From contig JAJONP010000010.1 in NCBI GenBank assembly GCA_021323555.1, forward strand, positions 1-31,054: DNA of 31,054 nt. The letters are read 5' to 3'. A model generated the notes under the pieces. That model did no database searches and had not been told where the DNA came from. It was given only the letters and a program-made list of their open reading frames with translations. The position numbers were made by a program, and so were the translations under genes. The DNA comes from Gammaproteobacteria bacterium. Lineage in GTDB: Bacteria > Pseudomonadota > Gammaproteobacteria > DSM-16500. Below are positions 1 to 19,401 of this stretch, piece by piece. How positions within the stretch are numbered: position 1 is the first letter of the stretch; the number at the start of each line of letters is the position of its first letter.

Positions 1-2120
1 GTAATATCCCCGCTATTCTCTAGTAAGAATTTGACGGTCTCAGTTTTACCGCTTGAAGCAGCGCATAAGAGGGCTCTCATCCAAGTATCGTCTCTTCTAG
101 TGAGGTCAGCCCCATTTCTTAATAAACAAGGAATAATTGAGGTATAGCCGCGGCTTGCCGCCCACAGTAAAACTGGCGTTTCCCCTTTTTCTCCTATTTC
201 CTTTTTTTCTTCAGCCAGCTTTTTGCTATTGTCTAATAAAAATTGAATGACCTCAGCCATGTCGTTCTGATCTTCCACAGTAAGGTTAGCACCATTCTCT
301 AGCAAGAGCTTAACAATCTCTGCTTTACCCTCCTCTGCGGCTAAAAGCAGCGCTGTTCTGCCTTCCTTATCTCTTTCAATCAAGCTCGCTCCATTTTCTA
401 GCAAATATTTAGCAGTCTCAATATAGCCATACTCAGCGGCATAAAGGAGGGCTGTTTTGCCGAACATGTTCTTTTCATTAATATCTATGCCTTTTTCTAG
501 CAGGAGCTGGATAATCTCAACGTAATGGTATTTAAAAGCCCAAAAAAGCATCATCTGACCTTCTCTTTTGCCAGCCGGATTAGCTCCTTTCCTTAGCAAA
601 AATTCGACAGTTTCCTGATGGTTTCTATCGGCACTCCACAGTAGTGCGGTGCGCCCGTCATTATCTTTTTCAGTAATATCCGCGCCACTCTCTAACAAGA
701 ATTTAACCATGTTAGTATGACCATACTTAGCTGCTAAAAGTAATGCTGTCTTACCATCTTTATTTTTTTCAGCTAGATTCGCTCCGTTTTCTAGCAAACA
801 TTTAGCAATCTCAGTGTGGCCATACTTAGCAGCATACATCAACGCTGTCTTTTCTCCCGTAGACGTGCGATCCTCGTCCCACACATAGTGAGAGTGATCT
901 TTTTCAGTAATGTCCGCCCCATTCTCTAACAAGAATTTAACAGCTTCAATTTTCCCGCTTAAAGCAGCATAAAGCAGTGCGGTCTTACCAGATCTACTCT
1001 TTATGTTAATATTTACTCCTTTTCTCAGTGCAAATTGGATAATCTCAATGTGGCCATATTGAGCGGCCCAAAGAAATAGCCACTGATCCTCTGTTTTGTC
1101 AATCGGATCAGCGCCGTTCTTCAGCAAAAATGCGACAGTCTCAGCCTGGTTTCCTTTTAAAGCATACGGTAGCGCTGTTCTGCCGCCCTTATCTTTTTCA
1201 GTGATAGCCGCACCATTTTCTAACAAAAATTTAATAGTCTCAATGTGACCTCTGTAAGCAGCCCAAAACAAGGCTATCCTACCCCTTTTATCTTTTTCAG
1301 CGAGATCCGCGCCACTCTCCAGTAAAAATCGAATAGTTCCAATATGGCCATTCTCAGCCGCACAATGTACAGCTGTCTTACCTTGGTTATTCTTTTCATC
1401 CAGGCTCGCCCCATTCTCTAGCAACCATTGGACAGTTTCAGTTTTACCATTCAAAGCTGCCCACAACAAAGCTGTATTCCCATATTTGTCTTTTTCAGTG
1501 AGCATCGCTCCCTTGTCTCGCAACCATTTAAGCAGAGATAAGTTGCCCATCTTAGCTGCGTACATTAAAGGGGTCGAACCCCCTTGATCACGAATATCAA
1601 TGGCTATCCCTGCTTCCAGTGCCGCGAGCACATGTTTTTCCTCTCCTCGGTAAACTGCTTCATGCAGCGGTGTATCAAATGTCGCACCTCGCGCTACTAA
1701 GATATCTACACAAGCCGGTACGCTCACTGCGAAAGAGAGGGGTGTACTACCCTGCTCGGTATCGCCTCGATTAACATCTGCACCAGCATCCAGCAGCATC
1801 CTTACCATCATTAAGGTTTTCTTTTGTATGTCAAGTCTAGCAGAGTTAAGTTGAAAAACTGCTTCTGCTAAAAGTGTCCTCTCCTGGTTAATACTATTTA
1901 CGTCAACTTTTTTTTCTAAAAAAGCCTTCAGCCATTCACTGTTTCCCTGTTGGATAGCTCCGAACAATAATCTATGTTCAGAAATTTCCTCTATGTTTAT
2001 AAGAGCTTGATTTTCATCGCTTTTTCTTTCATCATTTTCGTAAACCTTTTCTAACTCCTTGTTGCTTTCATTGAAGTTTTTCGGATTTTCATCGGGAACT
2101 GGTAATCTATGTTTAAACAT
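1..2120 (-). CDS. Ankyrin-repeat protein, partial (C-terminus beyond left edge)
   Basis: An open frame reads from ATG at 2120 to the window edge (706 codons, no stop), so the C-terminus is missing. A GGAGG ribosome site lies 5 nt before the ATG, in the 10-nt gap after the stop of the upstream PARP-type gene, so the two are co-transcribed. The first ~45 residues are charged and of low complexity. The rest is about eighteen tandem ankyrin repeats of ~33 residues with the usual GxTALxxAAxxGH and LLExGAD motifs. Several repeats are close copies, and a three-repeat block (around 900-1195) recurs around 370-665. Near residues 405-420 a ~15-residue insert containing HYVWDED breaks the repeat phase. 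Ankyrin arrays bind proteins, and in intracellular Legionellales they are common in secreted effectors. No catalytic domain is visible in the part present. Effector status is inferred. Confidence 0.9.
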   Translation of the reverse strand, partial: MFKHRLPVPDENPKNFNESNKELEKVYENDERKSDENQALINIEEISEHRLLFGAIQQGNSEWLKAFLEKKVDVNSINQERTLLAEAVFQLNSARLDIQKKTLMMVRMLLDAGADVNRGDTEQGSTPLSFAVSVPACVDILVARGATFDTPLHEAVYRGEEKHVLAALEAGIAIDIRDQGGSTPLMYAAKMGNLSLLKWLRDKGAMLTEKDKYGNTALLWAALNGKTETVQWLLENGASLDEKNNQGKTAVHCAAENGHIGTIRFLLESGADLAEKDKRGRIALFWAAYRGHIETIKFLLENGAAITEKDKGGRTALPYALKGNQAETVAFLLKNGADPIDKTEDQWLFLWAAQYGHIEIIQFALRKGVNINIKSRSGKTALLYAALSGKIEAVKFLLENGADITEKDHSHYVWDEDRTSTGEKTALMYAAKYGHTEIAKCLLENGANLAEKNKDGKTALLLAAKYGHTNMVKFLLESGADITEKDNDGRTALLWSADRNHQETVEFLLRKGANPAGKREGQMMLFWAFKYHYVEIIQLLLEKGIDINEKNMFGKTALLYAAEYGYIETAKYLLENGASLIERDKEGRTALLLAAEEGKAEIVKLLLENGANLTVEDQNDMAEVIQFLLDNSKKLAEEKKEIGEKGETPVLLWAASRGYTSIIPCLLRNGADLTRRDDTWMRALLCAASSGKTETVKFLLENSGDI

Positions 2121-2130
2121 TCAATCCTCC

Positions 2131-5100
2131 TTATGGTTTGTTTTTTAAAATTGCACTGCCATCCGATACGGGATTTTTTTGTTTGGCATGAGCTTCTTTC
2201 ACTTTTTTCGATTTAAAGAAAGGCATGTAGGACTCAGGGCCTCTTAGCCGATTAACCGTACTCTTTTTAAGTTGCACCAGATACCGTGGCATACACGCCA
2301 TTAAATTAAAAACAACCAACTCATGGTACGTAGGTTTTTGGTTAATGCCACAGGGGTAGTAATTGACTTCATTCGGGTTAGCAGGGTCTCGTGGCCGTAC
2401 CGGTATATAATGCGCATCATAATTGGCATAATTACCTCGCTCCGCTAATTTAGGCATGTCGCCTTGGATAACAGGATAGGCAGAATAACAAGCGACCCAA
2501 TTAATTAATAATGTCCCTTTACTGTAGACCCGATGGGCATACTCCGCTTCATACGCCGAATAAAGCCCTTTTCCAAAAAACCCACTGTCTGTTAAAGCAA
2601 GATTCGCAAAGCCGGCATTACAAATGCTGGGAACCACTTGGGGCGCAGTGCCATGCCATAAAGGCAACAAGGTGACATTCAGGTGTTCGTTGTCCCGATA
2701 CTGTTTCGCTTTTTCCTCTAAAGAAGTTGCCACCGCTTCGCGTAATTCAGGTTCTTCTTCCTCTCGCCAACGAGGTGCAAACACCAGATTCCCTTCTCTC
2801 TGCTGCAATAACCTCAAATAAATCGAAAACCCTTTCTCCATCGTGGGATTATAAACGACACGTACATCGGCTATTTCGTGATTTGTAACCGGCGACCGTA
2901 GGTAACACGAAAAAACTTTCTCCAGATCCGGCTCCATCGGATCTAAAAGAGCATACTGCGATCCTGGGGGTAATAAAATCATCCCTTGTGCCCGCACCGC
3001 TGCCGAATGCCAAGGCTGGAAGGGGACAATATCTCTAAGAGGCGGAGGAAGAGGCGCGCTGTCTTTTTCTTCGCCTACCGCCTCATAGAGTCCCAATTGA
3101 TCCACAGGCACCAGCGTGGTTAAAAGATCTTTGATCATCCCATAACACGTTGATTGCGTATGCGTGTAGGTGTCCACTTTCTGGCCTTCGCCATCTGCGG
3201 CTGCCTGAGGCGCTTCTCCTTCCCCTCGGAAGAGATGGACCCGCTCGCTTAATAAGCGCTGGCTTTCATGATACAAGATGACTGCCTGGGGAGCCTCAGG
3301 CTGTTGACTGCAAACCCAGAGTGTTTTTAAGACCCGCGCAAACAGCGTGATTTCCATCTCGTTGCGTCGAATAAGCCGGGCGGCTAATTCAAGTAATAAC
3401 TGAAGTGACAACTGATATTCTTCTAAAGATAAAGACGCATTAACGAAAACGCTCCTATGCATTTGCAACAAGGCGCGGTAATAACGATAATCGCGTTTAG
3501 CAATTTGTTCTCGGTAGTTTTCAGGTAGAAAATGGATGTTGTCTAACCCCAAACATAAGACGCTTTTGTCATTGGGATAATCTTTTTTCACACCCTCTAA
3601 AAAAGCGCCATCGTTCGCGATCACCGTCAAGCGGTAATCCACGGGCGGGTGCTGACGTAAAGTGCGGCCGACCCAGAGCGCCATGGCTTCCCACCGCACT
3701 AAGAGCGTTTCTTCCGCTGCCTCTATCCCTTCGGGTACCGCTAAGATCGCATTCAATGACAGGTGATGGGCGTGGATATAAGCCCGTGCCGCCTCATCGA
3801 TTTTTTCATCACCCACTTCACACAATACGCGACCCTCCGCCGTTTTCAGTAACTGTAACAAAGGGTACTGTGCTTCCGATCCTTTCTTGGCTTGTTCTAC
3901 TAAGACTTCACTTGAGATCAAAATGACATGAGCGCTTTCTTTCACGCGATGGGGCATAAGCTTATTAAAACACGTTAACGATTTTTGATAGTCTGCCATT
4001 GACCCAGGGTAAAAACGGTAATCCACCCGTTTATAAAACAAGGTTAATTCTTTTTCTACAATAACGGAAGACTTTTCAATCAAGTGCTTGACCACATTGA
4101 TCACTTCTAATTTATCGTCATATACGAGAATCTGGCTGTGACGTGGCAGGCGCGACAGCACATGCTGCAACAAATGAAATTTGCCTTGACGCAAGGATTC
4201 TTCTTTGGGTTCACTTTGAATATGACATTCAATACTCGCTACTTCCTCGGCAATTACTTGTTGATGCGGGTGACGCAGTGCGTGATCCGGCGCATCCGGA
4301 TAGCGCAATCTATTCTTCTTTATCTGACGTTCGCACGGTAAAACCGTCTCTGCATAGTAAGTACCGAGCGGGTCATTGACTGTTTCTATGTAAGGTGTAT
4401 TAGAAGTAATCACACCATCCACCCAAACGCCATACCGCGCTAAGCGTCTGACCATATCCATCCGAGAAGAATTATGACGAACCGTGTGCAGGGCATTGTA
4501 ATGCAAGGAATAAGAGGTCACTAAAAAAAGCGCGTCCGCCGGATGATGCCTTAATGCTTGTAAGAGCGCCAGATTGAGTTCGCCTTGGCTATTCACAATC
4601 GTATTATCCACATCCAATAAAATAACCGTTTGGGGTGTTTCATCCCCTTGTTCGAGGCAGGAGGACACCCAGGAAAGAGGAGAGAAAGAAGGCTGCGGCA
4701 GAGCGGAGATCACGCACGCGCCCTCCGTTTGCTGGGTCGATTGCAACCAGGCGACCGTGCCGACTTTCCCTTTACGGCGCGCTTTATCGAGCGGTGTTTG
4801 ACCCAATTTATCGGGTAGATGTAAATGGGCACCGTGCTGTTGTAATAGTTTTAAAAAATCGATATCCCCTTGGCTCGCCGCAATATGCGCTGCTGTATAT
4901 AAGGCATCATTCAGGTAGTCTGGGTCAGCTAATTGATGAGCTAACAAATATCGAGCGAGTCCTAGATTCCTATACTCTGCCGCGAGGTGCAACAGCGATT
5001 GATGGGCTCGAGAGGCAGCAAACAAGGCTTTGACGCGTAAGAAAAAATGCATCGGAAAGGCAGAATCATCTTCTTCTACAGCCACTGCCGCAGCAGCAAC

Positions 5101-6756
5101 TTCTCCTTCGCCCGCAGGCGCTACATTCTCTTTCCACGTCTCAAACCGCTTATAATCGATGCAATTTAACAACTGGATCAGACTTTCTTGGGAACTACAC
5201 CCCTTTCTTAAAGAAAGAGAAGGAGACGACCGCAGAAGAATCTCCCTGCCACAGGCGCGAAACGCCGCTCGCCCCGAAAGATTGAGACGCGTTCCCCATT
5301 CCAATCGTTCTGCCTCGTTGGAAAAACTGGTTTCATATAACGCTTGCTGGCTCCTTAATACCTCCTGATCATGTTCAGCTAAAATGCAATGATAATACTC
5401 TGCTAACTCGGGCTCGAGTCTTTCAAAAAGCGCCTGGTGTGTTACAATAGGAAGCTGTCTAAGAAGATCAAAAAGGCTGCAAAGCTTAGCGTAAACCGTG
5501 GCGACAACACCTATTTTAAGGCGCGTCCCAAAGAAAAAATCTTGCAGTTCCCCAGGGGTTTTTGCGGGTGCGCACCCGTCTGACAGTAAGGTATCGTACA
5601 ATGCTTGGCGTTCTCCCAATAAAGCTAACCATTCCAACATCACCCTTTCGGGTGTTGTCTTCAGTAACGCCTCACGAAACGCGTTGGAAAAAGGCAATTG
5701 CATATGGGGTAAAAAATACAAGACTTGTTTAATAAGAGGAACTCTTCTCTTCTGACCCGCTTCGTCACTCTCGACCCAGGTGGAATCCCCCCATGCAAAG
5801 GCTGCATCCATCCCGTATAAGCGGACATGCCTCTTCTCGGTATATTCCACAGCATATTGATCGGCCGTAGCATCCAAAGGCCCTACTAAGAGTCCTATGA
5901 CAAACGCTTCTGAAAAATTTTCCCACTCTACATCATACTGCGAAGCAAGATCGGCCAAAGGAGTCTGTAAGATATCGTGTAAAGTGTGTTCGCTCAAAAT
6001 AGGCGACACTTCATATAGTCGTACATCGCCCGAGCCCGTGAATACTTTACACAAATCGGGCATCCGAGCGCTCTGGCTGGTTAAAACGTATTCTAAGCTG
6101 CTCACGGCAAAATGCCTGCGCCCTTCAGAAGACGAAGGCGGATCAAAACGGTAAGAACCTGCAACAAATCCTGCTTGTACACTCTCAGGTAACGCGACCC
6201 ACGCGGCCATGGCCTCATTCAATGCTTTCGCCTCAAGATCCTTCCCGACTACTAGCGCCGGCACACGATTCAAGAACGCATCCGGTGCAAGAGCTGGTAT
6301 CGCTATCACCCATTCGATATACTGCCGGTAAAGTCCACAGAGTCGCTCAAGCGGCTCTTTCACGCCTAATTGTTCTCCACACGTTTTGGCTGCCTTTTCG
6401 AGCCACTGGATCTGGCGATGGATTTCCGCAAACTTAGGATGATGATCGGGCGAGGAGATGGAGGAAAAGAAAGAAAACAGCGCATTCTTTTTTACAGAAG
6501 GATCAGCCACCACGAGAAGGGCGGGGTGGTTTAAATCAGCAAGTGGGAAAGAGGGCGGGAGCATCGCTGAATAGGAACGGATGATCGCGATTTCTTTCCA
6601 AATATGGTAAGTAAAAATAGCGAAAAGATCAGAATTGGCGTCTGCTCCTTTCACCAAGAGTTCGCTTAACTTCTCCCAGAGGGAGCCCCTTGCGTATGCG
6701 AGGAATTCACTTTCTTTATGCTCTTCTACCAAAAGAGAGTTGACGTAACTTTGCAT
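2131..6756 (-). CDS. Giant multidomain protein: ankyrin, HAD-like and PARP-type ADP-ribosyltransferase regions
   Basis: 1541 residues. The start is fixed by AAGGAG 8 nt before the ATG, overlapping the stop of the upstream TIR gene. Residues 1-580 are unrecognised and largely helical. Ankyrin-like repeats lie at ~585-675. A HAD-like core follows: motif I DVDNT (D715, D717, T719), TSYS at 747-750, and an acidic VYDDK at 878-882. Residues ~940-1100 form a further alpha/beta-looking segment. The C-terminal ~1350-1505 carries PARP signatures: LWHGT (H1368), FGKGLY (Y1399), YHELVVFN (E1479) and then MPRYLV, giving the complete H-Y-E triad of PARP/ARTD enzymes that transfer ADP-ribose from NAD+. The family link is from motifs. 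Ankyrin plus PARP recalls tankyrase, but the SAM domain and domain order differ. A host-directed effector is likely but inferred. G+C is visibly higher than in the rep/par region. Confidence 0.88.
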   Translation of the reverse strand: MQSYVNSLLVEEHKESEFLAYARGSLWEKLSELLVKGADANSDLFAIFTYHIWKEIAIIRSYSAMLPPSFPLADLNHPALLVVADPSVKKNALFSFFSSISSPDHHPKFAEIHRQIQWLEKAAKTCGEQLGVKEPLERLCGLYRQYIEWVIAIPALAPDAFLNRVPALVVGKDLEAKALNEAMAAWVALPESVQAGFVAGSYRFDPPSSSEGRRHFAVSSLEYVLTSQSARMPDLCKVFTGSGDVRLYEVSPILSEHTLHDILQTPLADLASQYDVEWENFSEAFVIGLLVGPLDATADQYAVEYTEKRHVRLYGMDAAFAWGDSTWVESDEAGQKRRVPLIKQVLYFLPHMQLPFSNAFREALLKTTPERVMLEWLALLGERQALYDTLLSDGCAPAKTPGELQDFFFGTRLKIGVVATVYAKLCSLFDLLRQLPIVTHQALFERLEPELAEYYHCILAEHDQEVLRSQQALYETSFSNEAERLEWGTRLNLSGRAAFRACGREILLRSSPSLSLRKGCSSQESLIQLLNCIDYKRFETWKENVAPAGEGEVAAAAVAVEEDDSAFPMHFFLRVKALFAASRAHQSLLHLAAEYRNLGLARYLLAHQLADPDYLNDALYTAAHIAASQGDIDFLKLLQQHGAHLHLPDKLGQTPLDKARRKGKVGTVAWLQSTQQTEGACVISALPQPSFSPLSWVSSCLEQGDETPQTVILLDVDNTIVNSQGELNLALLQALRHHPADALFLVTSYSLHYNALHTVRHNSSRMDMVRRLARYGVWVDGVITSNTPYIETVNDPLGTYYAETVLPCERQIKKNRLRYPDAPDHALRHPHQQVIAEEVASIECHIQSEPKEESLRQGKFHLLQHVLSRLPRHSQILVYDDKLEVINVVKHLIEKSSVIVEKELTLFYKRVDYRFYPGSMADYQKSLTCFNKLMPHRVKESAHVILISSEVLVEQAKKGSEAQYPLLQLLKTAEGRVLCEVGDEKIDEAARAYIHAHHLSLNAILAVPEGIEAAEETLLVRWEAMALWVGRTLRQHPPVDYRLTVIANDGAFLEGVKKDYPNDKSVLCLGLDNIHFLPENYREQIAKRDYRYYRALLQMHRSVFVNASLSLEEYQLSLQLLLELAARLIRRNEMEITLFARVLKTLWVCSQQPEAPQAVILYHESQRLLSERVHLFRGEGEAPQAAADGEGQKVDTYTHTQSTCYGMIKDLLTTLVPVDQLGLYEAVGEEKDSAPLPPPLRDIVPFQPWHSAAVRAQGMILLPPGSQYALLDPMEPDLEKVFSCYLRSPVTNHEIADVRVVYNPTMEKGFSIYLRLLQQREGNLVFAPRWREEEEPELREAVATSLEEKAKQYRDNEHLNVTLLPLWHGTAPQVVPSICNAGFANLALTDSGFFGKGLYSAYEAEYAHRVYSKGTLLINWVACYSAYPVIQGDMPKLAERGNYANYDAHYIPVRPRDPANPNEVNYYPCGINQKPTYHELVVFNLMACMPRYLVQLKKSTVNRLRGPESYMPFFKSKKVKEAHAKQKNPVSDGSAILKNKP

Positions 6757-6761
6757 GGCGT

Positions 6762-7100
6762 CTACTCCTTATGCGCTTCTTTAATGCCTGTTGCCATTGT
6801 CTCTGCGATATTTTTATCCATGCTGTCGATATCGAGAAAAACCTCATAACCTGCTTCCTTTAAATGCGTTTCAATTTGAACTAATTTTTTTTGAAGCAAA
6901 TTATTGGCTTCCTCTGATTCCCATGCATAGCTAATAAAAAGACCGCATCCTTGCCGACCGGCGTGGTGTACCATTTGCTGTAAAAGAGCATGACATGCCG
7001 CTTCTGTATTCCGAAAGCAAGGAGGGAAACCTCGTGGTAAGTCAGGCGAGACGGATCCACCAGAGAATTTTTGTTCAACGGGAGGGTCTTGATGTAGCAT
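6762..7100 (-). CDS. Truncated TIR-domain protein
   Basis: 112 residues. Residues ~51-112 match the first half of a TIR domain: strand A FISYAW (55-60), a long helix, then GYEVFLDID (84-92) and a helix ending at the stop. The second half of the fold, including the region holding the catalytic Glu of NADase TIR domains, is absent. The gene stops 5 nt before the PARP-type gene, and its last codons form that gene's ribosome-binding site, so the two are translationally coupled. Residues 1-50 are unrecognised and rich in Pro and Gly. The start site is weak (GAG about 10 nt upstream) and an in-frame stop precedes it closely. It may be a decayed remnant or a shortened protein kept as a leader. NADase activity is unlikely as encoded. 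Confidence 0.6.
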   Translation of the reverse strand: MLHQDPPVEQKFSGGSVSPDLPRGFPPCFRNTEAACHALLQQMVHHAGRQGCGLFISYAWESEEANNLLQKKLVQIETHLKEAGYEVFLDIDSMDKNIAETMATGIKEAHKE

Positions 7101-7280
7101 GTGGCACGCACTCTAAAAAATTAATTATATTCAAATTCATCCCATTTCCTTCTCTTTGTGATGGCTCCTTAGCATGATAGAAAGGATTCACTCTAATCAA
7201 CAGGCTAAGAATAAACAATCCTCTCTCTCTTTCTTTCTCTGATTTCCAGTAACTCCCATTATCAGAAATATATTCTTTAC

Positions 7281-7496
7281 TTACTTGTAGTAATCTTTGC
7301 TCGCACTCCATGCACCCGCTATTGCAAGAATACCCAATAAGAAAATATCAATCACGGCCTCCAGGAAAGAACTATAAAACATCGTGAGGCTCGAGATAGT
7401 CGCACAAAAAAACAGACCTATCACAAACCCTTTCCAGTAGACAGGACGGATTACTAAAACTTTCTTAAAAAAGTGGTTTGCCCAATCTGTTTTCAA
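7281..7496 (-). CDS. Small two-helix membrane protein, hypothetical
   Basis: 71 residues with two predicted membrane helices (about 20-41 and 45-62) and a charged C-terminal tail. The start is TTG with GAGAAG about 5 nt upstream, so it is not firmly set. No family is recognised. It lies ahead of the TIR-PARP-ankyrin genes on the same strand, but ~180 nt separate it from the TIR start. It could be a genuine small inner-membrane protein or a fragment of a larger lost gene. Confidence 0.4.
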   Translation of the reverse strand: MKTDWANHFFKKVLVIRPVYWKGFVIGLFFCATISSLTMFYSSFLEAVIDIFLLGILAIAGAWSASKDYYK

Positions 7497-8372: not shown

Positions 8373-8726
8373 ATGAACCCGACAAAAATAGAAATACCAC
8401 GTCATGCCCAAACGCCTGTTCCACTTGAGACGATTGATCAATTTAAAAATGCTTGTCTTGATCTCAGACGTTCTATTCACGAAATGTCTGATTCTTCTGC
8501 TAAAGAAATGTTGCTTTTTTATATGGATTCTCTCATCTCTCTCGATATTTTTTCTTATGAGGAAGAAGCGAAAAACAGCATTGAACGGATGCGCTCCATT
8601 CTGGAGCGAACTTCTGTTAAGTTAAGCCTGGAACGCCAATTCGTTTATTTGGATGATGCTTTCTTAACAATCTGTAAAGGAAGTATGAGCGTAAAAATGG
8701 CGCATTTTAGACGAAAGCACCATTAG
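8373..8726 (+). CDS. Hypothetical protein, 117 residues
   Basis: Starts at ATG 8373 behind a strong GGGAGGAG site (~8357-8364). It is mostly helical and charged, with no signal peptide or membrane helix, and has a basic C-terminus ending RRKHH. No family is recognised. It is convergent with the GacA-type regulator gene at 9114-9773. It may be a small cytosolic regulatory or structural protein, and nothing in the sequence decides the role. Confidence 0.65.
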   Translation: MNPTKIEIPRHAQTPVPLETIDQFKNACLDLRRSIHEMSDSSAKEMLLFYMDSLISLDIFSYEEEAKNSIERMRSILERTSVKLSLERQFVYLDDAFLTICKGSMSVKMAHFRRKHH

Positions 8727-9972: not shown

Positions 9973-10224
9973 CTACAAGTAAGTGGAAACCTCGTCGCAC
10001 ACTGCACTGAGTTGATTCATCTGGTCTTCTATTACCCAAAAATAGCCGCGTAATGTGCGCTGGCCGCATTTCGCTAGCTTTTTATGGGTATTGGCAACCC
10101 TTATCAGAGCGTTTAACCTTTCTAAATGTATGTTCAGTTTATCATTTAATTGAAAGATTTTGCTTGATACTGGAAAATCGCCTTTATTTTCACTGGATGG
10201 ATCGTGATATACTTGCTCGGTCAT
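9973..10224 (-). CDS. Hypothetical protein, 83 residues
   Basis: A small, soluble, helical protein. ATG at 10224 follows AAGGAGT by about 8 nt, a good ribosome site. A central amphipathic helix (about 26-55) contains LNDKLNIHLERLNALIRVA, followed by a basic stretch. No family is recognised. It lies downstream of the Rep_3 gene on the same strand, behind a leader that can fold (10260-10288), so it could be a plasmid maintenance or copy-control gene. That is a positional guess. Confidence 0.6.
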   Translation of the reverse strand: MTEQVYHDPSSENKGDFPVSSKIFQLNDKLNIHLERLNALIRVANTHKKLAKCGQRTLRGYFWVIEDQMNQLSAVCDEVSTYL

Positions 10225-10415: not shown

Positions 10416-11762
10416 TTAAACAACTTCTTCCTCAGAAATATATTCTTCAAAATTTAAAAAATCAATGCCATGATTTTGATAATTTTTATCAGCATATTCA
10501 ATAAACTCCATCATGGCAGGCAGGGAATGGATACCTTTTTTTTGATATAATTCTCCCATGATTTGATTCGTATTAGTCATATTTTTTATAAATTCAGTGC
10601 GAATGGTGTCCTCTATTTTTCGCTCGGAAAAATATTTTATATACTGATCAAATTTATATTGTACATATTTCTTTTTGAGAGAACGCACTTGAGATGCCTC
10701 GCTGGTTTCTCGCTGGTATGTATTAATTACCCCCCTACTCTCTTGTTTATCTCTTCTTATTTTCTCATTTTCTTTATAATCATTTTTTAACGCGGCTACT
10801 AAATAAGCTCCTGGCTTTTCTATTTTTTTACTTCTTTTTACTAAAGCAATTTTTTCCGCCATATAATCCGCAGAATAATTCAAAAGTAACCCTTGTGCTT
10901 GTTTTTCTTGCATACCAAAATCAGAAGCTAATATTGCAAGTAATGAAGAGTGAGTCAATTCATGATTAACTGTTACATCTAATGACCGAGGCGCTCTTTT
11001 AAAGGCTGGCTTATAATTTTCATTTTCAAAAATCAAAAATCGAATTGACGTAATTGTACGCCCTACTTTCCTATATTCAGGCTCCACTTTAATATCAGAT
11101 TTTTTATTAATTTCATCAATCGCTATCGTGATAACATTCCTTTTTAATTCTTTAAAAGATTCGTATTTCTTCCCTATTAAACCCATCAATGAACGAAATA
11201 AATCTAATTTAAACCACGCCGTTTTTGAAATATTTTTAAACCTGATACAATTTTCATATAAAACAAGGCTATAGTTAGAATTAAATTTCGCCTGAACAAA
11301 CAAATTAATACGTCCATAAATTTCTAAAGAAGACAGTACAGATTTTATTTGAGGGCTATAAGAATAAGAAATAACACCACGCTCAATGGATGCCCCTGCT
11401 AACAATGCACTTGCATTCCATGAAACGGCATCTTTTGAAAAATTAGCTTCATTTAAAAACTTACTGTCATCAAGAAGATTCCATTCCATGATTGTAGAAA
11501 TTAAGCCCTTAATGGATTTTTTTATTAAATGAATATCGTTACTCCTATAACCAATTAAACTACATAATTGATTTAATGGAATCTGATGAATTTCTTTGTT
11601 TTCTATACCATCTAATGCGTGAAATAAAAATACATTGCAAATTTTTCTTTGCAAGAAGGAAAGTTTATTTTCGCAATGAATGAGACCTACATGTTTTTTT
11701 AAAACAGGCTCTGAATGGCTATTCGCTCTTTCAATGAGTTTGCCATTTTTTTTATATTCCAT
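10416..11762 (-). CDS. Plasmid replication initiator, Rep_3 (RepB/Pi/RepE) superfamily
   Basis: About 448 residues. The start is placed at ATG 11762, with AGGA 8 nt upstream. An upstream in-frame ATG at 11771 abuts the first iteron and has no spaced ribosome site. The N-terminal half has the double winged-helix layout of Rep_3 initiators, including KLSFLQRKICNVFLFHAL and LCSLIGYRSNDIHLIKKSI, then SPQIKSVL and the ELKRNVITIAIDEINKKSDI segment of the second domain. The C-terminal ~180 residues are Lys-rich, longer than in classical initiators, and include an extra helical region. The protein should bind the adjacent 22-bp iterons and open the neighbouring AT-rich DNA. Iterons directly before the start suggest autorepression. 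The gene is strongly AT-rich, like the parA/parB genes. Confidence 0.82.
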   Translation of the reverse strand: MEYKKNGKLIERANSHSEPVLKKHVGLIHCENKLSFLQRKICNVFLFHALDGIENKEIHQIPLNQLCSLIGYRSNDIHLIKKSIKGLISTIMEWNLLDDSKFLNEANFSKDAVSWNASALLAGASIERGVISYSYSPQIKSVLSSLEIYGRINLFVQAKFNSNYSLVLYENCIRFKNISKTAWFKLDLFRSLMGLIGKKYESFKELKRNVITIAIDEINKKSDIKVEPEYRKVGRTITSIRFLIFENENYKPAFKRAPRSLDVTVNHELTHSSLLAILASDFGMQEKQAQGLLLNYSADYMAEKIALVKRSKKIEKPGAYLVAALKNDYKENEKIRRDKQESRGVINTYQRETSEASQVRSLKKKYVQYKFDQYIKYFSERKIEDTIRTEFIKNMTNTNQIMGELYQKKGIHSLPAMMEFIEYADKNYQNHGIDFLNFEEYISEEEVV

Positions 11763-11768
11763 TAATGC

Positions 11769-11878
11769 CATCCTGTAAACTTACACTTTATATCCTGTAT
11801 TGCTACACTTATTATCCTGTAAACCTACACTTTATATCCTGTATTGCTACACTTATTATCCTGTAAACCTACACTTAA
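11769..11878. repeat. Iteron array, five 22-bp units (replicon 1)
   Basis: Five direct repeats start at 11769, 11791, 11813, 11835 and 11857, exactly 22 bp apart. All share CCTGTA at the left and TACACTT at the right. Two types alternate: units 1, 3 and 5 have TCCTGTAAACCTACAC (unit 1 has T for one C), and units 2 and 4 have TCCTGTATTGCTACAC. This makes a 44-bp composite repeat. The array lies just upstream of the Rep_3 start and next to AT-rich DNA, as in iteron-regulated plasmid origins. Confidence 0.93.
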
Positions 11879-12007
11879 ATAATATATTTTAATTATTATT
11901 TAATCAGTTATAGATATTAAACTAGTAAAATAACTTAAATAAATAAAACATACAGCGAATGTATTATTTAAATCGTTTAATAAACAATATCTCCTTCTAA
12001 CAATCAC
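11879..12007. other. AT-rich segment, candidate unwinding element of replicon 1
   Basis: This stretch between the iterons and the parA promoter is nearly all A and T, with runs such as AATAATATATTTTAATTATT. Its position beside the iterons fits the DNA-unwinding part of oriV. No perfect DnaA box was seen within it. Confidence 0.5.
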
Positions 12008-12036
12008 TTGTTCAGCTTTGTACTACTTAGTATAAT
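12008..12036 (+). promoter_or_regulatory. parA promoter (-35 TTGTTC, -10 TATAAT)
   Basis: TTGTTC (12008-12013), a 17-bp spacer and a perfect TATAAT (12031-12036) precede parA. CTAC/GTAG half-repeats overlap the -10 and might be an autoregulatory operator. GGAG lies about 7 nt before the parA ATG. Confidence 0.7.
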
Positions 12037-12061
12037 GTAGGCGATTGAATGGAGAATTGCA

Positions 12062-12937
12062 ATGAGAATAATTTCTGTTGTGAATAATAAGGGTGGTGTC
12101 GGCAAAACAACTGTCAGTAGAATACTGGCTGAATACTTCTCTATTATTAAAAAAGAACGCGTACTAGCACTTGATATGGACCCACAAGCAAATTTTAGCA
12201 ATCGGTTTTTGAAAATGGAAATTGATACTTACCAAGAAGAAGGAAAAATCCCTCCTATTCACCCTAGTTATGATAAACAAGACCCTGAGCATGAGAACTG
12301 GGATGGTCGAAGTAGTATCGCAGGTATCTTTTTTGGTGAAGCAGTGTTTCCTTATCAAACTTATATTGAGAATTTAGAAATTTGTCCATCACATAGCTCA
12401 AGAATATTATTGGCCGAAGCAGTCACACGCACAGAGGTTGTCCAAAAGGTATATGAACAGTTAGCTAAGTTTTTAACGCTGGAAGAAGTTAAAGAAAGCT
12501 ATGATAAAATCATTATAGATACCCCACCCTCTAAAGGCCCCGTCACAATCAGCGCGCTAAGAGCTTCTACGGATATCATCATACCTTCTATTATGGAACC
12601 ACAAGTGATTGAAGGTATTTATGGAATGATCCATCTTTGGAAGACAGAAAAACTCAGGCGCTCAAGTAATAACAATCTTAATCTTATTGGCATTTTACCC
12701 AATTCTTATGTCAATAGAGCCATTATTCATAGAGACCATCGAGAAAGTCTTATAAAGGAAATTCCAGATCATGTCTTAGATTCTGTGATTAGCAGAAGAC
12801 TTATTTATGCTGAAGTAGATGCGGATGATGCAGTGCCACGTTCCATTTTTATGTATCAAGATAAAAATCCAGCAAAAATAGAGGTTTTGAAAGCTTGTAA
12901 CGAAATAGAAGAAAGGATGAATGTTTATGTCAGCTAA
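12062..12937 (+). CDS. parA: ParA-family partition ATPase
   Basis: 291 residues. The deviant Walker A motif NNKGGVGKTT (8-17), LALDMDPQAN (Walker A' region) and IIIDTPPSKGP (Walker B region) identify a ParA/Soj-type ATPase. There is no long N-terminal DNA-binding domain, so it resembles the small type Ib/Soj class. It would move or position plasmid copies over the nucleoid together with ParB. The start is set by GGAG ~7 nt upstream, and a strong promoter precedes it. It overlaps parB by 11 nt, so the two are one operon. It is divergent from the Rep_3 gene across the iteron origin, the usual arrangement for low-copy plasmids. Confidence 0.93.
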   Translation: MRIISVVNNKGGVGKTTVSRILAEYFSIIKKERVLALDMDPQANFSNRFLKMEIDTYQEEGKIPPIHPSYDKQDPEHENWDGRSSIAGIFFGEAVFPYQTYIENLEICPSHSSRILLAEAVTRTEVVQKVYEQLAKFLTLEEVKESYDKIIIDTPPSKGPVTISALRASTDIIIPSIMEPQVIEGIYGMIHLWKTEKLRRSSNNNLNLIGILPNSYVNRAIIHRDHRESLIKEIPDHVLDSVISRRLIYAEVDADDAVPRSIFMYQDKNPAKIEVLKACNEIEERMNVYVS

Positions 12938-13925
12938 AAAAAGTTTTTCTATATCCAAAGGACTTGCAAGTGGATTACGATCTTCAGTTGAATCTGCTTC
13001 AACAAACCATGGCCAACAATTACATTATGACATGATGTTAATTGATGTTATTGAACCAGACCCAAATAATCCCAGAAAGCTTTTAATATCCAGACAAGAA
13101 ATTACTCAAGGATTGAATAAGGCTGATCCTGATTATGATCATAAGGCAAAAGAATTGAACGACCTTAGCGATCTTGCCGAATCTATCAAAAAAGTAGGTA
13201 TTAGAAATGCTATTGAAGTCTATAAAGGAGATAATAAATATAGAATTATTTCAGGTGAAAGGAGGTATTTAGCTGCAATATTGGCTGGTCAATCTTATGT
13301 GCCTGCGCGTATTAATCAGAAATTTGATGAATTTAAGTTACGCTATATTCAGTGGGTTGAAAATATCAATAGGCAAGATCTATCTTTATGGGAAAGATAT
13401 AATAACCTTGTTTCGATGGCAGATGCTTATTATAAAACAAACTCTGCTCCATTGAATTCCCAGTTATTGAAAAAATTGCTTGGTGTATCGGATACACAAT
13501 CTTATAGATATTTATGTTTATTAAAAGCAGATAAAGAAATTATTGATCTTGTTAAAAGTGGGAAATTAACTAACTTAAAGCTTATTCAAGAATTGGCCTG
13601 TATTAAAAACAAAATAAATTACCAAAAAACAGTACAGGAAATCAAAAATATACCAGGAGTAATAACATCTCTTAAAAAGTTTAAATCATTATTAGAAAAA
13701 ACTGCACCCGCACGCTCTGTAATTAGTTTAGGAAAAATAAAGAACATAAACACCGCTAAACATTTACTTAAAATCGTACTTTCAGATTTGACACTCAATA
13801 AATATCAACATCATTTTAATGGCATTAACTGGGATTCTACAAAGGCAATTAATAAGGCTTTTAAAGAATTATTAAATATCCTGGAGAAAGAATTCCATAA
13901 TGAAGAGACGGTTGATGCAAATTAG
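12927..13925 (+). CDS. parB: ParB-family partition DNA-binding protein
   Basis: About 332 residues from ATG 12927, chosen over 12921 because AAGGA lies 9 nt rather than 3 nt upstream. The N-terminal ParB/Sulfiredoxin-like domain has IEPDPNNPRK (near 42-51) and the CTP-binding box SGERRYLAA (box II). QWVENINRQDLSLWERYNN matches the helical segment that follows in ParB, and the helix-turn-helix around LLGVSDTQSYRYLCLLKA should bind parS. A ~20-residue insert after NPRK separates the two first motifs. It works with ParA in plasmid segregation. The 3' end overlaps the next small gene. Confidence 0.92.
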   Translation: MSAKKSFSISKGLASGLRSSVESASTNHGQQLHYDMMLIDVIEPDPNNPRKLLISRQEITQGLNKADPDYDHKAKELNDLSDLAESIKKVGIRNAIEVYKGDNKYRIISGERRYLAAILAGQSYVPARINQKFDEFKLRYIQWVENINRQDLSLWERYNNLVSMADAYYKTNSAPLNSQLLKKLLGVSDTQSYRYLCLLKADKEIIDLVKSGKLTNLKLIQELACIKNKINYQKTVQEIKNIPGVITSLKKFKSLLEKTAPARSVISLGKIKNINTAKHLLKIVLSDLTLNKYQHHFNGINWDSTKAINKAFKELLNILEKEFHNEETVDAN

Positions 13926-14271
13926 AAAAAAATCAAAAAAGCTAACAGTTCGTTTTGCTAAGCGCCTAAAAATCGAAATGCAGCAAGCTATTATTAATTC
14001 AGATTATGGATTACATGGCAAAAGTCGATGGCTAGCTGAAGCAATAATCATTTTTCTTAACCAGGCAAACTATGTTGAGCTTGTTGAGCATGGTATTAAT
14101 ATCAACCAGGCGGATTTAAGCGAAGTAGAAGCATTTTACCTAGATGAAGAAATGCTTATAAAAGTAAAAAATGCATTAACGAATGTAAGAGTTAAATATC
14201 CCTTGTTTGAAGGCGTACAAAGCGCATTTATTAGAGCATGTGTTATATATAAATTAATGCTAAGAAAATAA
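13900..14271 (+). CDS. Small protein at the end of the par operon, possible ribbon-helix-helix type
   Basis: 123 residues, overlapping the parB end by 26 nt, so it is translated from the same message. The basic N-terminus is followed by KLTVRFAKRLKIEMQQAI and a helix pair around KSRWLAEAIIIFL, which resembles a ribbon-helix-helix DNA-binding fold (a beta strand then two helices). The C-terminal half is helical and unrecognised. It may be an auxiliary partition or copy-control protein that binds plasmid DNA. An internal ATG at 13915 is an alternative start. The fold call is from pattern only. Confidence 0.65.
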   Translation: MKRRLMQIRKKSKKLTVRFAKRLKIEMQQAIINSDYGLHGKSRWLAEAIIIFLNQANYVELVEHGININQADLSEVEAFYLDEEMLIKVKNALTNVRVKYPLFEGVQSAFIRACVIYKLMLRK

Positions 14272-14709: not shown

Positions 14710-16101
14710 CTATGCTTCTGCAATCACTTTCATCTGACATAACTCTTGAAACCCATGGCGACCATGTTCATGTCCCCTACCCGAGGCTTTCCATCCCCCA
14801 AATGGGGTGCAGGGTTGCCAATGATTTCCGTGATTGATCTCAACACAGCCTGCCTGTAGGTGGCTCGCAATATATCGCGCTTTGTTTATATCCTTGGAGC
14901 AAATCAGCGCGCCTAAACCGTAAGAGGTGTCATTCGCCAGGTGAATGGCTTCTTTATCATTTTTAAATGAAACGATAGGTAACACAGGCCCAAATACTTC
15001 TTCCTGCCAGACACGCATCTCTTTTTTAATATGTGTTAAAAGGGTAGGGGTATAATAAGCGCCCGAAAATTTCCCTGGCCGTTTCCCGCCGATCATTAAA
15101 GTCGCTCCTTTAGCAAGCGCATCATTCACTTGCGCCTCCAGTGTTTCTCGATGTGACAGGGATACGAGTGGCCCTAATTCTGTTTCTTTATTTTGAGGAT
15201 CGCCTATTTTTATTTTTTTTAATCGATGAGTAAGACGGTCGACTACTTGATCGAAGAGGGTATCATGAACGAGTAAGCGTTTGATGGCATCACACACTTG
15301 TCCGCCATTTAAAAATCTTCCCATATATACTTTCTCCATTAAACCATCCACATCCGCGTCTTCAAGAATAATGGCTGGATTAGAGCCGCCCATTTCTAAG
15401 AGGGCTTTAATTTGTTTTCTCCCTGCAATTGCAGCCAATTCACGTCCTACAAGAGAGCTGCCTGTAAACCAAATCATATCAATCTCTTGTTGAACTAGAT
15501 AGGTGCCTTCCTCCGCATCGCCGTAAATCGCAGAAAATACGCCGTGAGGCAACTCTTTTAATGACAATAGACTTTCTTCAAGTAATTTAGAAACGTGCGG
15601 ACATTCTTCCGAATGTTTAAATACAACTGTATTGCCCACAATCAAATTAGGAATCACACTCCAGATAAAATTGCCGAAGGGATAATTCCAAGGAGCAATG
15701 CAAGCGACCACCCCTCGAGGTTCATACGTAATACGATGGATAGCATTTTCTTTCTGAAAAACGATTTCATCTGCAATATAATTTGCGCCTTCCGTCAAAA
15801 AATTATTGAGATAAATAAAATCACCCTCAAAGTCACTCAAGCTTTCTAAAATCGGTTTACCGATTTCTTGAGTCGTCAGATAGGCAATTTCTTCTTTCTT
15901 TTTTTTAAATAGTTCTTGTAGCGGACGTAAAATATCAATTCGCTTTTCTACACCGAATGCTTTCCAAAGAGGAGCTGCGGCACGCGCGTATTTTATTTTT
16001 TCTGTGATCTGGTGCGGAGTAGAGGCCTCCATTTCGCCTATCACACTCTGATCGGCTGGATTGAGGGATATTATTTTTTTAGAGGATAAATTATTTTTCA
16101 T
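14710..16101 (-). CDS. NAD(P)-dependent aldehyde dehydrogenase (succinate-semialdehyde dehydrogenase-like)
   Basis: 463 residues, full length for the family. The catalytic set is visible: N139 in APWNYPFG, K162 in VVFKHSEE, the nucleotide-binding FTGSSLVG (212-219), the general base E236 in LEMGGSNP and the nucleophile C270 in NGGQVCDAIKR. It oxidises an aldehyde to the acid with NAD+ or NADP+. The pattern resembles Sad/GabD-type succinate-semialdehyde dehydrogenases, but the substrate cannot be read from the sequence. It follows the histidine-kinase gene after 28 nt with AGGA before the ATG, so it is probably the last gene of the sensor operon. That suggests its aldehyde or acid is linked to the sensed signal (inference). 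It is complete, with no missing catalytic residues. Confidence 0.9.
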   Translation of the reverse strand: MKNNLSSKKIISLNPADQSVIGEMEASTPHQITEKIKYARAAAPLWKAFGVEKRIDILRPLQELFKKKKEEIAYLTTQEIGKPILESLSDFEGDFIYLNNFLTEGANYIADEIVFQKENAIHRITYEPRGVVACIAPWNYPFGNFIWSVIPNLIVGNTVVFKHSEECPHVSKLLEESLLSLKELPHGVFSAIYGDAEEGTYLVQQEIDMIWFTGSSLVGRELAAIAGRKQIKALLEMGGSNPAIILEDADVDGLMEKVYMGRFLNGGQVCDAIKRLLVHDTLFDQVVDRLTHRLKKIKIGDPQNKETELGPLVSLSHRETLEAQVNDALAKGATLMIGGKRPGKFSGAYYTPTLLTHIKKEMRVWQEEVFGPVLPIVSFKNDKEAIHLANDTSYGLGALICSKDINKARYIASHLQAGCVEINHGNHWQPCTPFGGWKASGRGHEHGRHGFQELCQMKVIAEA

Positions 16102-16129
16102 GTGAGGGTTCCTATGAACGGTTAGCCAA

Positions 16130-18385
16130 TCATAAATGATTATTTATTTTTAATGGAATAGTTTGTATCACAAATTTAGGTAGTAGCCAGACGCCAAGTT
16201 GTGTGCAGTATTGTTGGATTGAAGCGTCTTCTGCCTCGCTCGTGACGAGGTAGCCACGATTCCCTGCTTGAATTTTTTCTAAGAGCGCAAGACCCGTCCA
16301 TATCGGGTCTTCTAATTCATGATTAAATAAATAAACGGCGTGGTTGGCTCTGTCTGGATGCTGTAAACACCAGTCTATCAAAGTACTCGCTTCTTTAAAG
16401 GAAATCATTTCTATTTTAGAAGATTTTAAATCGTCCTGCCAAAACGCACCTATGGTTTCATCCTCATCTAACACGATCACGAGATCCTCTTTATTTAATA
16501 GAATTCCTTCAGGGAACCAGGATGGGGCAGGGGACTCTGGAATGAATAATTCTAATTTTGTTCCTTTTCCGAGGAAAGAGATGAGACTTAATGTACCGCC
16601 AAGCGCTTCGATATAGCTTTTAGCACCTGAGAGACCCAGTCCTTTTCCTGGATGCTTTAAACTTTTTCCTTCTAACATGTCTACTACATGTTCTCTCGCA
16701 ATACCACACCCCGTATCAGAAATACATAAAGAGAGATACGCGTTTTGTTCAGTCGTGAGGGTAATATCAATTTGCCTTTTATCTTGTAACGACTCATAGG
16801 CATTATTTAATAAATTTGAAATAATTCGCCTAAAATCGCGTGGAACCATCAATACCCAGCCTGTCTTTTCTCGCATGTGCAGGGTAAGATTGATTTCAGA
16901 GGGTCGTGCTGCCCATTCCACTTTTTTTTGTGAGGCTATTTCTTCCATCACATGAGGTAAAAACAGATAACAGGGCATTGAGTTAGGTTTAGAATGACTT
17001 GTAGGATGGTGGCGTATATTTGACAAGGTTAGGAGACTTCCTGGGCTTCGGTATTTTTCCAGAAGCGTATAAGCCATCGTTCGTATGCCTTGTATAGCTT
17101 TTCTCAGTTGAGTTTTTAAATCAAGGGGCAGCTGTTCGCGGTGGAGGTGTACTGTCATTTCCATCAAGGCGAGCGGGGATGCAATATCATGCGCAACGCT
17201 CGCGGCCAAGGCGACTATTTGGCGCTCGATCGTATGTTGTTCGTATAAGGATAAAAGCGCTTTCTTTATAAATTTCTTAAGATCAATATATTCTCGTATT
17301 CCATAATCTTCGTGCCATTCAAGTAGGGGTTCAAATTTTCCTTGAAATGAATAATCTTTGATGATGGCTTCAAGCTCTTTGAGGGGCTTTAGCAATTTCT
17401 TTGAAAAATAAACACTTAAGATCACGGTGATAATGAAGAGAAGGATGATCAGAGGGGGAAGGTATTTTAATACGCTTTCGCTGGGAGGAGCGACATGTGC
17501 CGCATATTCCACAAAAATGGAAAATAATACGATGGCGAATCCTCCCAGACAAAAACCCCCTACGGCAATTTGAAATTGTAGACAGTTTATACCATAACAC
17601 CAGTTGTCTATAGAATTTTTCTCTGGGTTTTGTTTTAAATGCAGGAGACCATACAGGATGAGTAGCTGGCCTGCCATCCAGGTAAACTCAAATGGACTAT
17701 TCCGCACGCTGGCAAGCGCCACCACAGGGAGCCTAATCATATAATTAGAACAAATAATGATAAGAAAGCCGATAGCCATGGATGAAATAGCTTTGTTGGC
17801 CGATGTTCCGAGACAAAGAGAGACCAGTACGAAATTGGCAGCTTCTATCAAAACATCCGCGAGTTGATAAAGACCTTCGCCTGATAATCGGTTGATTTTC
17901 CATCCGCCAAAATATAAAAATACCCCGAATACGAATAATGAAGAGATTATTAAAGGGAGATGAGTGAGTAAGGACGCTTTCTGTGGTCTGTTCTTGGCAT
18001 TGGCTTCCTGAAAGAGTTCCCACCATAGCCAGGCTTGTAAACATAAGAAAAATAATAAGGGAATCTCGAACAAGGAAGAGATCAAAAGGGAGGGGTTAGA
18101 AATGCCAAACACATTTTGGAAGAGATTATAGAGGCTGTCCGCAAGGCTTTCGATGAAATAAGAAATGGCGGTCAATCCAAATAGCCGACGCCTTTTGCCA
18201 CTTGTTTCATCATATAACGGGAGGGAGAGTACACCGAGCAGGATGTCCATGCCCGCTTCCCCCATTAATGTTATCCCCCCAATGAAGGAGGGCTTACTGA
18301 GAGGACTTATCGCATAACTTATCGCACCCACTAAACAAAACGACAAAAAGACTAATAACCCATATCCTTTGAACATGCTTATCAT
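16130..18385 (-). CDS. Membrane hybrid histidine kinase with a degenerate receiver domain
   Basis: 751 residues. The N-terminal ~330 residues hold about eight to ten membrane helices with no large periplasmic loop, so the input is probably a membrane-soluble or membrane-associated signal. Then come a HAMP-like linker, the phosphorylation site VAHDIASPL (H399), N-box IISNLLNNAYE (N524, N528), G1 SDTGCG (D557-G559) and G2 GKGLGL, which make a complete HATPase. The C-terminal ~635-748 folds like a receiver (VLDEDE, LVTS, PK), but the phospho-acceptor position is N688 in YLFNHELED, so this domain should not accept phosphate. It starts 12 nt after the response-regulator gene and is followed by the aldehyde dehydrogenase. 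The second ATG at 18376 is an alternative start. Similar HDIxSPL kinases are common in Legionellales. Confidence 0.88.
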   Translation of the reverse strand: MISMFKGYGLLVFLSFCLVGAISYAISPLSKPSFIGGITLMGEAGMDILLGVLSLPLYDETSGKRRRLFGLTAISYFIESLADSLYNLFQNVFGISNPSLLISSLFEIPLLFFLCLQAWLWWELFQEANAKNRPQKASLLTHLPLIISSLFVFGVFLYFGGWKINRLSGEGLYQLADVLIEAANFVLVSLCLGTSANKAISSMAIGFLIIICSNYMIRLPVVALASVRNSPFEFTWMAGQLLILYGLLHLKQNPEKNSIDNWCYGINCLQFQIAVGGFCLGGFAIVLFSIFVEYAAHVAPPSESVLKYLPPLIILLFIITVILSVYFSKKLLKPLKELEAIIKDYSFQGKFEPLLEWHEDYGIREYIDLKKFIKKALLSLYEQHTIERQIVALAASVAHDIASPLALMEMTVHLHREQLPLDLKTQLRKAIQGIRTMAYTLLEKYRSPGSLLTLSNIRHHPTSHSKPNSMPCYLFLPHVMEEIASQKKVEWAARPSEINLTLHMREKTGWVLMVPRDFRRIISNLLNNAYESLQDKRQIDITLTTEQNAYLSLCISDTGCGIAREHVVDMLEGKSLKHPGKGLGLSGAKSYIEALGGTLSLISFLGKGTKLELFIPESPAPSWFPEGILLNKEDLVIVLDEDETIGAFWQDDLKSSKIEMISFKEASTLIDWCLQHPDRANHAVYLFNHELEDPIWTGLALLEKIQAGNRGYLVTSEAEDASIQQYCTQLGVWLLPKFVIQTIPLKINNHL

Positions 18386-18397
18386 CTCGATAAACTA

Positions 18398-19327
18398 TTA
18401 TAAATCGAGCGTTGTCCAATAATAGCGTTCTCTCCCTTCTACTGTCTCTGACGGATAAAAACAATGTCTCCACTCCGAGGCTTCTATTTGCCACGCTTCT
18501 TTTCCCACACCAAAAAAAGGAATTTTTTTATTTTCTTTGATAGCGATTACTTCGAGGAGGGATAACTCTGAGCAATAAAAAGAAAGCCAGAAATTAATAC
18601 TTTTATCTGTGTGTACCACAAAACATTTTTTTTGTTTTTTCTTATCAATACATAAATAACTGCCTTGTTTGTCCATCAAGTAATATTCTTCTATTTCGTT
18701 TTTTTTGCAGTACCATTCAAAATGCTTAATAAAGAGAGGATCAGAGAGAGGAAGTTTACTTTCAGTTTCCAAGTGGGTGAGCAGGGGCAATGAGAGTTTT
18801 TGAAAATATTCGAAGGTGGCTTGTTGCAGATACATCGCTAATGTTGTGACAAGATCGACTTCCTGTTTTTGCACGTATCGGTGAATTAAATTATTATTGA
18901 AGCCTGTCATCGCCTCATGGGATTCGATCGCGCCTGTCAGCAGTATTTTCTGAATGGGAAGGCTATTCATTTCTTTAACGAAGGTAAAGCCATCCATTTC
19001 TGGCATTTGGTAGTCAATGACCATCGCCGTAATCTCTTGATGCCGATCGAGATCATTCGCAATCTTCATTAACAAGGTGACATCGAAATCAGTGGGCGTG
19101 TGTTTTAACACCCCGTAGGTTTCATCATGGGAAAGACTTTTTAAAAAAGTATATTTTGAAAAAGGGGATTGGTAATTTTTTAAAAAATCCAGACACTCTT
19201 TGGCTGAGTAGAAGGGTTTGATGTGATTATAATCCTCGAAAGTTGACACCATATTATCTAAGAGTGTTTTATCGTCATCAATCCAAAGCCATGTACTCGG
19301 GTAATAAAATAATGGAAGGGTTTGCAT
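18398..19327 (-). CDS. Atypical response regulator, LqsR-like architecture
   Basis: 309 residues behind an excellent GGAGGT site. The receiver has the acid cluster IDDDK (16-20), phospho-acceptor D105 in VIDYQMPEMDG, T135-G136 in LLTG and a Lys in YVQKQE, so it should be phosphorylatable. The acceptor lies about 50 residues later than in ordinary receivers because of an insert at ~50-95. Legionella LqsR is also reported with an atypical receiver and a late acceptor Asp, so the architecture is similar. The C-terminal ~170 residues have no DNA-binding motif and are unrecognised. The gene directly precedes its probable partner kinase. The LqsR link is a hypothesis from layout, not a sequence match I can run. 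Confidence 0.78.
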   Translation of the reverse strand: MQTLPLFYYPSTWLWIDDDKTLLDNMVSTFEDYNHIKPFYSAKECLDFLKNYQSPFSKYTFLKSLSHDETYGVLKHTPTDFDVTLLMKIANDLDRHQEITAMVIDYQMPEMDGFTFVKEMNSLPIQKILLTGAIESHEAMTGFNNNLIHRYVQKQEVDLVTTLAMYLQQATFEYFQKLSLPLLTHLETESKLPLSDPLFIKHFEWYCKKNEIEEYYLMDKQGSYLCIDKKKQKKCFVVHTDKSINFWLSFYCSELSLLEVIAIKENKKIPFFGVGKEAWQIEASEWRHCFYPSETVEGRERYYWTTLDL

Positions 19328-19401
19328 GGTCTACCTCCTACTAAAAATCCGCAGCGCGTATTTTTTTATAGCGCAATATTGAGTTTAATTAATCATAGTC
19401 A

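Follow-up and report, generated by a model that had tools for sequence, protein, structure and literature searches.

What does a plasmid of a gammaproteobacterium do with a gene that joins ankyrin repeats, a HAD-like region and a PARP catalytic module? The gene is an open reading frame (ORF) of 1541 codons at positions 2131-6756, minus strand, of the 31,054-nt stretch analysed here (the window; contig JAJONP010000010.1, assembly GCA_021323555.1). A sequence-only reading had placed in its product H1368, Y1399, E1479, MPRYLV, and DVDNT, all of which are found there, and had taken it for a host-directed ADP-ribosyltransferase effector. That is still the best reading, with catalysis, delivery, host, target, and the role of HAD as its inferred parts, and we consider it likely: the C-terminal module, with its histidine-tyrosine-glutamate (H-Y-E) triad, would be an NAD+-using ADP-ribosyltransferase. 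The most interesting part is the module family, rather than the single fusion.

The PARP module

The module occupies residues 1243-1504 (262 residues in the C-terminal part of the protein; 2245-3030, minus strand). PF00644 matches residues 1343-1497 with 29.4 bits against a curated cut-off of 26.7 (E 6.9e-7; E 8.9e-9 for the C-terminal piece alone). By a hidden Markov model (HMM) built from the modules of 108 relatives, with the window left out, the window scores 354.7 bits (E 8.5e-101, computed at a database size of 5.77e9), so that chance similarity is excluded; the predicted PARP-family match is borne out by both profiles. The relatives are the proteins from a search with the first 330 residues of one of them, L082, which is included; the window protein, being outside the length limits of that search, was added separately. 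All 109 have the module.

Motif LWHGT starts at residue 1366 (with H1368), FGKGLY at 1394 (Y1399), YHELVVFN at 1477 (E1479), and MPRYLV at 1489. The first and second triad residues (codons at 2653-2655 and 2560-2562, minus strand) are H and Y in 109/109 modules. Of the 105 modules that reach the third (2320-2322, minus strand), 104 have E and one, P0080, has N; four modules end earlier and have a gap there. Among further columns, D1390, G1392, G1395, G1397, Y1406, Y1411, and D1447 are invariant throughout, and H1449 is kept in 108/109. The predicted structure of the module is a PARP catalytic fold (confident model). DSSP assigns the triad residues, numbered 126, 157, and 237 in the model, to strands 120-128, 156-159, and 235-240; going by this strand placement, the triad sits on three core strands of the predicted PARP fold, as would be expected of the complete triad originally proposed.

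A PARP fold could conceivably be kept for something other than catalysis, as a pseudoenzyme or as an NAD-sensing or NAD-binding domain, with the ankyrin repeats making the protein a scaffold. Human PARP13 keeps the PARP fold without activity, and it is the best PARP match when the family profile is ranked by sequence (2.2e-5, with tankyrase at 0.058 and PARP14 at 0.048). Nevertheless, a triad that is complete and, save for one N in place of E, invariant across the family, together with the other invariant columns, makes this explanation improbable. Structure comparison of the module model scores PARP12 and tankyrase alike, and in structural alignments identity to human PARP12, PARP13, PARP10, PARP14, and PARP15 is about 14-23%.

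The module family

The PARP module itself is not unique to the window protein. PF00644 was found in two of 36 genomes from the order of G002, a related Legionellales metagenome-assembled genome (MAG; the genome of locus L003). One of these hits is L082, a 777-residue protein from a Legionellales MAG, whose module shares 47% identity with residues 1243-1498 of the window protein and has ankyrin repeats after it. The other is a separate, shorter PARP protein of 453 residues (PF00644 E 1.2e-13), encoded at L083 1189-2550, plus strand, in G021, another genome of that order; it is only remotely similar to the window module (a 47-residue match, E 0.04).

Partner domains were surveyed in all 108 relatives, in two halves of 54 (Pfam, E up to 0.001), with the 25 commonest families listed per half; counts for rarer partners are thus lower bounds. 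The PARP model was found in 97, protein kinase (PF00069) in 42, Sel1 in 29, and WD40 in eight. At least six (five listed in one half, and P0056 in the other) carry the SidE phosphodiesterase domain (PDE; SidE_PDE, PF12252) with E 2.7e-26 to 8e-38, starting 21-33 residues past the PARP module in P0056, P0066, P0070, P0083, and P0105 and about 150 residues past it in P0077. A seventh case, in genome G150 (L086 7-3006, plus strand), has the order SH3-kinase-PARP-PDE (PDE E 8e-35), which brings the proteins with a SidE-type PDE behind the PARP module to at least seven. OTU proteases occur in P0021 and P0083. Named bacterial relatives are from Parachlamydia, Protochlamydia, and Waddliaceae. Eight relatives, all with the prefix m51a1, are eukaryotic (P0084, P0086, P0089, P0094, P0102, P0103, P0106, P0107), several with a genomic span far beyond their coding length, as with introns; one of the m51a1 proteins has a RING domain and six have FG-GAP-type repeats.

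In a quickly built maximum-likelihood tree covering 111 modules, several of them on long branches, the eight amoebal modules are set apart together by one branch (support 95), while gammaproteobacterial and chlamydial modules each appear at several places, as gene transfer would give. Strongly supported branches force at least two changes for chlamydial and at least two for PDE-bearing modules, but at least one only for gammaproteobacterial modules, whose scatter is therefore not forced by them. The window module is beside P0087 (support 89), outside the strongly supported branches. The L082 module belongs to a strongly supported group of 11 (support 99) without the window module, which makes more than one origin of ankyrin-PARP unions probable. 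On these sequence comparisons, the PARP module is a mobile cassette, which Legionellales, Chlamydiae, and one amoeba each joined to different partners.

Domain order and the HAD-like region

The ORF has an ATG start; on the plus strand of 2131-6756, stops are abundant in the same frame. Its order is N-terminal region, ankyrin repeats, HAD-like region, a region of unrecognised fold, and PARP module (2131-6756, minus strand). With Pfam at E up to 1, the complete protein matches ankyrin models and PARP only; there is no match from residue 1 to 578-580 or in residues 951-1339, most of the HAD-PARP interval. The ankyrin repeats of the sequence-only reading are found at residues 586-672 (4741-5001, minus strand), where Ank_4, Ank_2, and Ank_5 match with E 2.2e-11 to 8.2e-10; there are about three. 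Residues 281-475 (5332-5916, minus strand) are weakly similar to a very long ORF of genome G002 with leucine-rich and HEAT repeats (23% identity over 196 positions; E 5e-7 as a single comparison, E 6e-6 in the genome search, where one of 36 genomes had a match). GC content is 47.6% in the gene, 46.8% at its third codon positions, and 38.8% in the window outside 2131-7100.

HAD proteins have the motif order DxDx[T/V], S/T, K, and an acidic motif. Residues 690-960 (3877-4689, minus strand) show DVDNT at 715, LVTSYS at 745, K859, and VYDDKLE at 878 (YDD at 879-881), which is that order. Curated HAD models fall below their cut-offs (PF00702 E 0.11; TIGR01484, HAD-IIB, E 0.15) and cover just 30-40 residues around motif I. 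A profile of four HAD-region sequences, compared with the PDB up to E 5, had one match, a phosphoserine phosphatase (E 0.7). Among the 36 genomes from the order of G002, a search with residues 699-823 brought up one protein, in G025 (E 1.2e-5; the local alignment scores 107, and 1000 shuffles reach 63 at most). A profile combining the window and G025 sequences adds G016 and G003, giving three of 36. The domain therefore recurs at differing places in large proteins of the order. The G003 copy has N in place of the first motif I aspartate. L092 556-1782 (minus strand) is a HAD-like relative with N at that position, probably a degenerate copy. The HAD-like core first noted from the DVDNT motif thus survives on motif order and relatives but not on curated profiles, and residues 690-960 probably represent a HAD-like domain.

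Comparison with known systems

The sequence-only reading had likened the protein to animal tankyrases. The parallel does not extend beyond the union of ankyrins and PARP: no SAM domain was found, there are about three repeats only, a HAD-like region lies between the two (unlike in PARP5a/b), and by sequence, though not by structure score, the module is nearer to PARP12/13/10. Human PARP12, PARP13, PARP10, PARP14, and PARP15 are without the third E of the triad, which the window module keeps, and have no ankyrins.

The same reading knew of no described bacterial protein with this domain order. No second case of the complete order was found in the sequence searches made; however, the module has its 108 relatives, L082 has PARP then ankyrins, and a Legionella PARP-type toxin domain was already in print. 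The accessible part of Zhang et al. (2012; PMC3482391) describes PARP-related domains in toxins: one from Legionella drancourtii (LDG_5757), and Tox-ART-PARP from actinobacteria. Like the window module, as far as that text's description goes, these are PARP-related, of the H-Y-E clade, and in bacterial toxins, one of them from Legionella; no ankyrin, HAD, kinase, or PDE is given there as a partner of LDG_5757.

Two surveys cover 28 (PMC4245714, 2014) and 72 (PMC5966428, 2018) bacterial PARPs. In their accessible sections, the 2014 survey reports H-Y-E in 27 of its 28, and the proteins either consist of just the catalytic domain or bear WGR and/or regulatory domains; the Pfam scan found neither WGR nor a PARP regulatory domain in the window protein. 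Neither survey mentions Legionella, and those same sections tie no chlamydiae or ankyrins to a bacterial PARP.

The SidE family (SdeA and relatives) and Lem26 are likewise ADP-ribosyltransferase effectors, and some relatives of the module carry the SidE PDE, although the window protein has no PF12252 match at E up to 1. According to the portion of PMC11696984 available, SidE and Lem26 use an R-S-E transferase, and the PDE of SidE makes use of ADP-ribosylated ubiquitin. In the accessible part of an L. pneumophila atlas, the effectors listed as ADP-ribosyltransferases are of R-S-E types; another model there, Lpg0796, resembles Tse6. The word "PARP" is nowhere in the main text of PMC11696984, PMC4209131, or PMC9803151, and among the matches listed in open-licence papers, taken by titles and starts of abstracts, none describes the module family or the union of PARP with SidE PDE.

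Proposed function

The producer is a Legionellales-like bacterium, most likely one living in protists. The PARP module was found in 3/369 genomes of a class sample and 1/398 of a phylum sample, G002 (the search centre) being the one genome found in both. DotI/IcmL of the Dot/Icm system is present in all three class-sample genomes with the module; among the same 369, it was found in 52 at E up to 0.001, 50 of them over the cut-off, and in none of 14 controls. The chance of three out of three is 0.0027, and of two out of two without G002 0.019, both figures ignoring kinship. DotI/IcmL is also present in 9/9 genomes chosen as relatives, which for that reason are not an independent test.

In the proposed mechanism, the PARP module would most likely bind NAD+ and ADP-ribosylate a host protein or itself, to judge from its predicted fold and its triad. 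Its kin and partner domains suggest that delivery into a protist host would be by Dot/Icm. By analogy with the general role of such repeats, the ankyrins probably choose the target. The HAD-like region is probably either a phosphohydrolase contributing a further step or a binding domain that has degenerated.

Several points weigh against this proposal. H-Y-E alone does not separate mono- from poly-ADP-ribosylation. The AlphaFold single-sequence model of the HAD region is unusable (predicted local distance difference test score 34.4), and none of the 108 relatives has a HAD-like region. E-block-type motifs serve as C-terminal signals, but the last 30 residues of the window protein hold a single glutamate, so there is no clear signal of this type. 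The full-length protein is found on two contigs, the longer of 39,067 bases, but as one member sequence, and for this reason selection on it cannot be judged.

Given the PARP-PDE unions and the use of ADP-ribosylated ubiquitin by the SidE PDE, ubiquitin is a candidate target of the family; in the case of the window protein the analogy is only a lead. It is conceivable, if doubtful, that the family represents a second, independent route to SidE-like chemistry, in which an H-Y-E PARP ADP-ribosylates and a phosphoesterase on the same chain processes the ADP-ribose. In the window protein the HAD would then take the place of the PDE, leaving ubiquitin or some other host protein with a phosphoribosyl or ribosyl mark.

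Plasmid setting and neighbouring genes

The sequence-only reading called the gene plasmid-borne, and the window is supported as part of a plasmid with conjugation genes by its gene content. A plasmid maintenance block at 10416-14271 comprises Rep_3 (minus strand) and a ParA-type ATPase, a ParB_N protein, and a small ORF (all plus strand), the last with no Pfam match over cut-off. The ParA and Rep proteins are 77% and 51% identical to those of Aquicella lusitana plasmid 3, where rep, parA, and parB are in the same order; the two nearest relatives of ParA on genome contigs (76% and 74%) are from MAGs titled Gammaproteobacteria and Legionellales. Conjugation genes are of the genomic island/integrative and conjugative element type, with TIGR03746, TIGR03749, and TIGR03752 over their cut-offs and TIGR03750 and a window-truncated TIGR03744 below them. 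Replication initiators of two types are present, RepA_C (20377-21390, plus strand) and Rep_3 (10416-11771, minus strand). A single run of genes at 14710-20109 (minus strand), lying after the par block and before the conjugation genes, encodes an aldehyde dehydrogenase, a sensor kinase, a response regulator, and S24/XRE repressor-type proteins.

Ten bases past the stop of the PARP gene starts an ankyrin-repeat ORF (3-2120, minus strand) of at least 706 residues, which runs off the window; its ankyrin array is very regular. Directly upstream of the PARP gene, a 112-residue ORF (6762-7100, minus strand) ends at its own stop and contains just the beginning of a TIR domain (PF13676, 24.6 bits, below the cut-off of 28). 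Aligned over 80 columns, it shares 56% identity with a TIR-AAA protein from genome G032, the remainder of whose first 600 residues has no significant match within the window. By sequence, 6762-7100 is probably the remnant of a TIR-NTPase gene.

This location on a plasmid, and the fact that TIR and ankyrins occur in defence genes too, would suit a role among bacteria: in anti-phage defence, as a toxin against other bacteria, or as a plasmid-maintenance toxin. One PADLOC model, PDC-M72A, does match the ankyrins (E 5.3e-6, residues 580-671), but the PARP part has no PADLOC match in any of the three proteins scanned, and the partner domains of the family are eukaryote-like. Nor were immunity or antitoxin Pfam models found in six nearby ORFs (3-2120, 6762-7100, 7075-7311, 7281-7496, 8373-8726, and 9973-10224), although immunity genes of new kinds would escape such a scan. 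Overall, a role of this sort seems unlikely. A decaying chimera, that is, a recent plasmid fusion without selected function, would account for the truncated TIR gene and for the failure to find a second full-length homologue, but is very unlikely given 1541 open codons, intact PARP catalytic columns, and HAD motifs still present.

Implications

The window protein, a probable host-directed effector, is one instance of a wider family. The PARP surveys, in their accessible parts, describe mainly WGR-bearing, DNA-repair-like proteins (PMC4245714, PMC5966428), with which the modular cassette contrasts. An H-Y-E PARP cassette of Legionellales, Chlamydiae, and an amoeba, found with kinases, ubiquitin-system domains, and SidE-type PDEs, represents candidate effector chemistry, and that it is common to bacteria and amoeba points to gene exchange between them.
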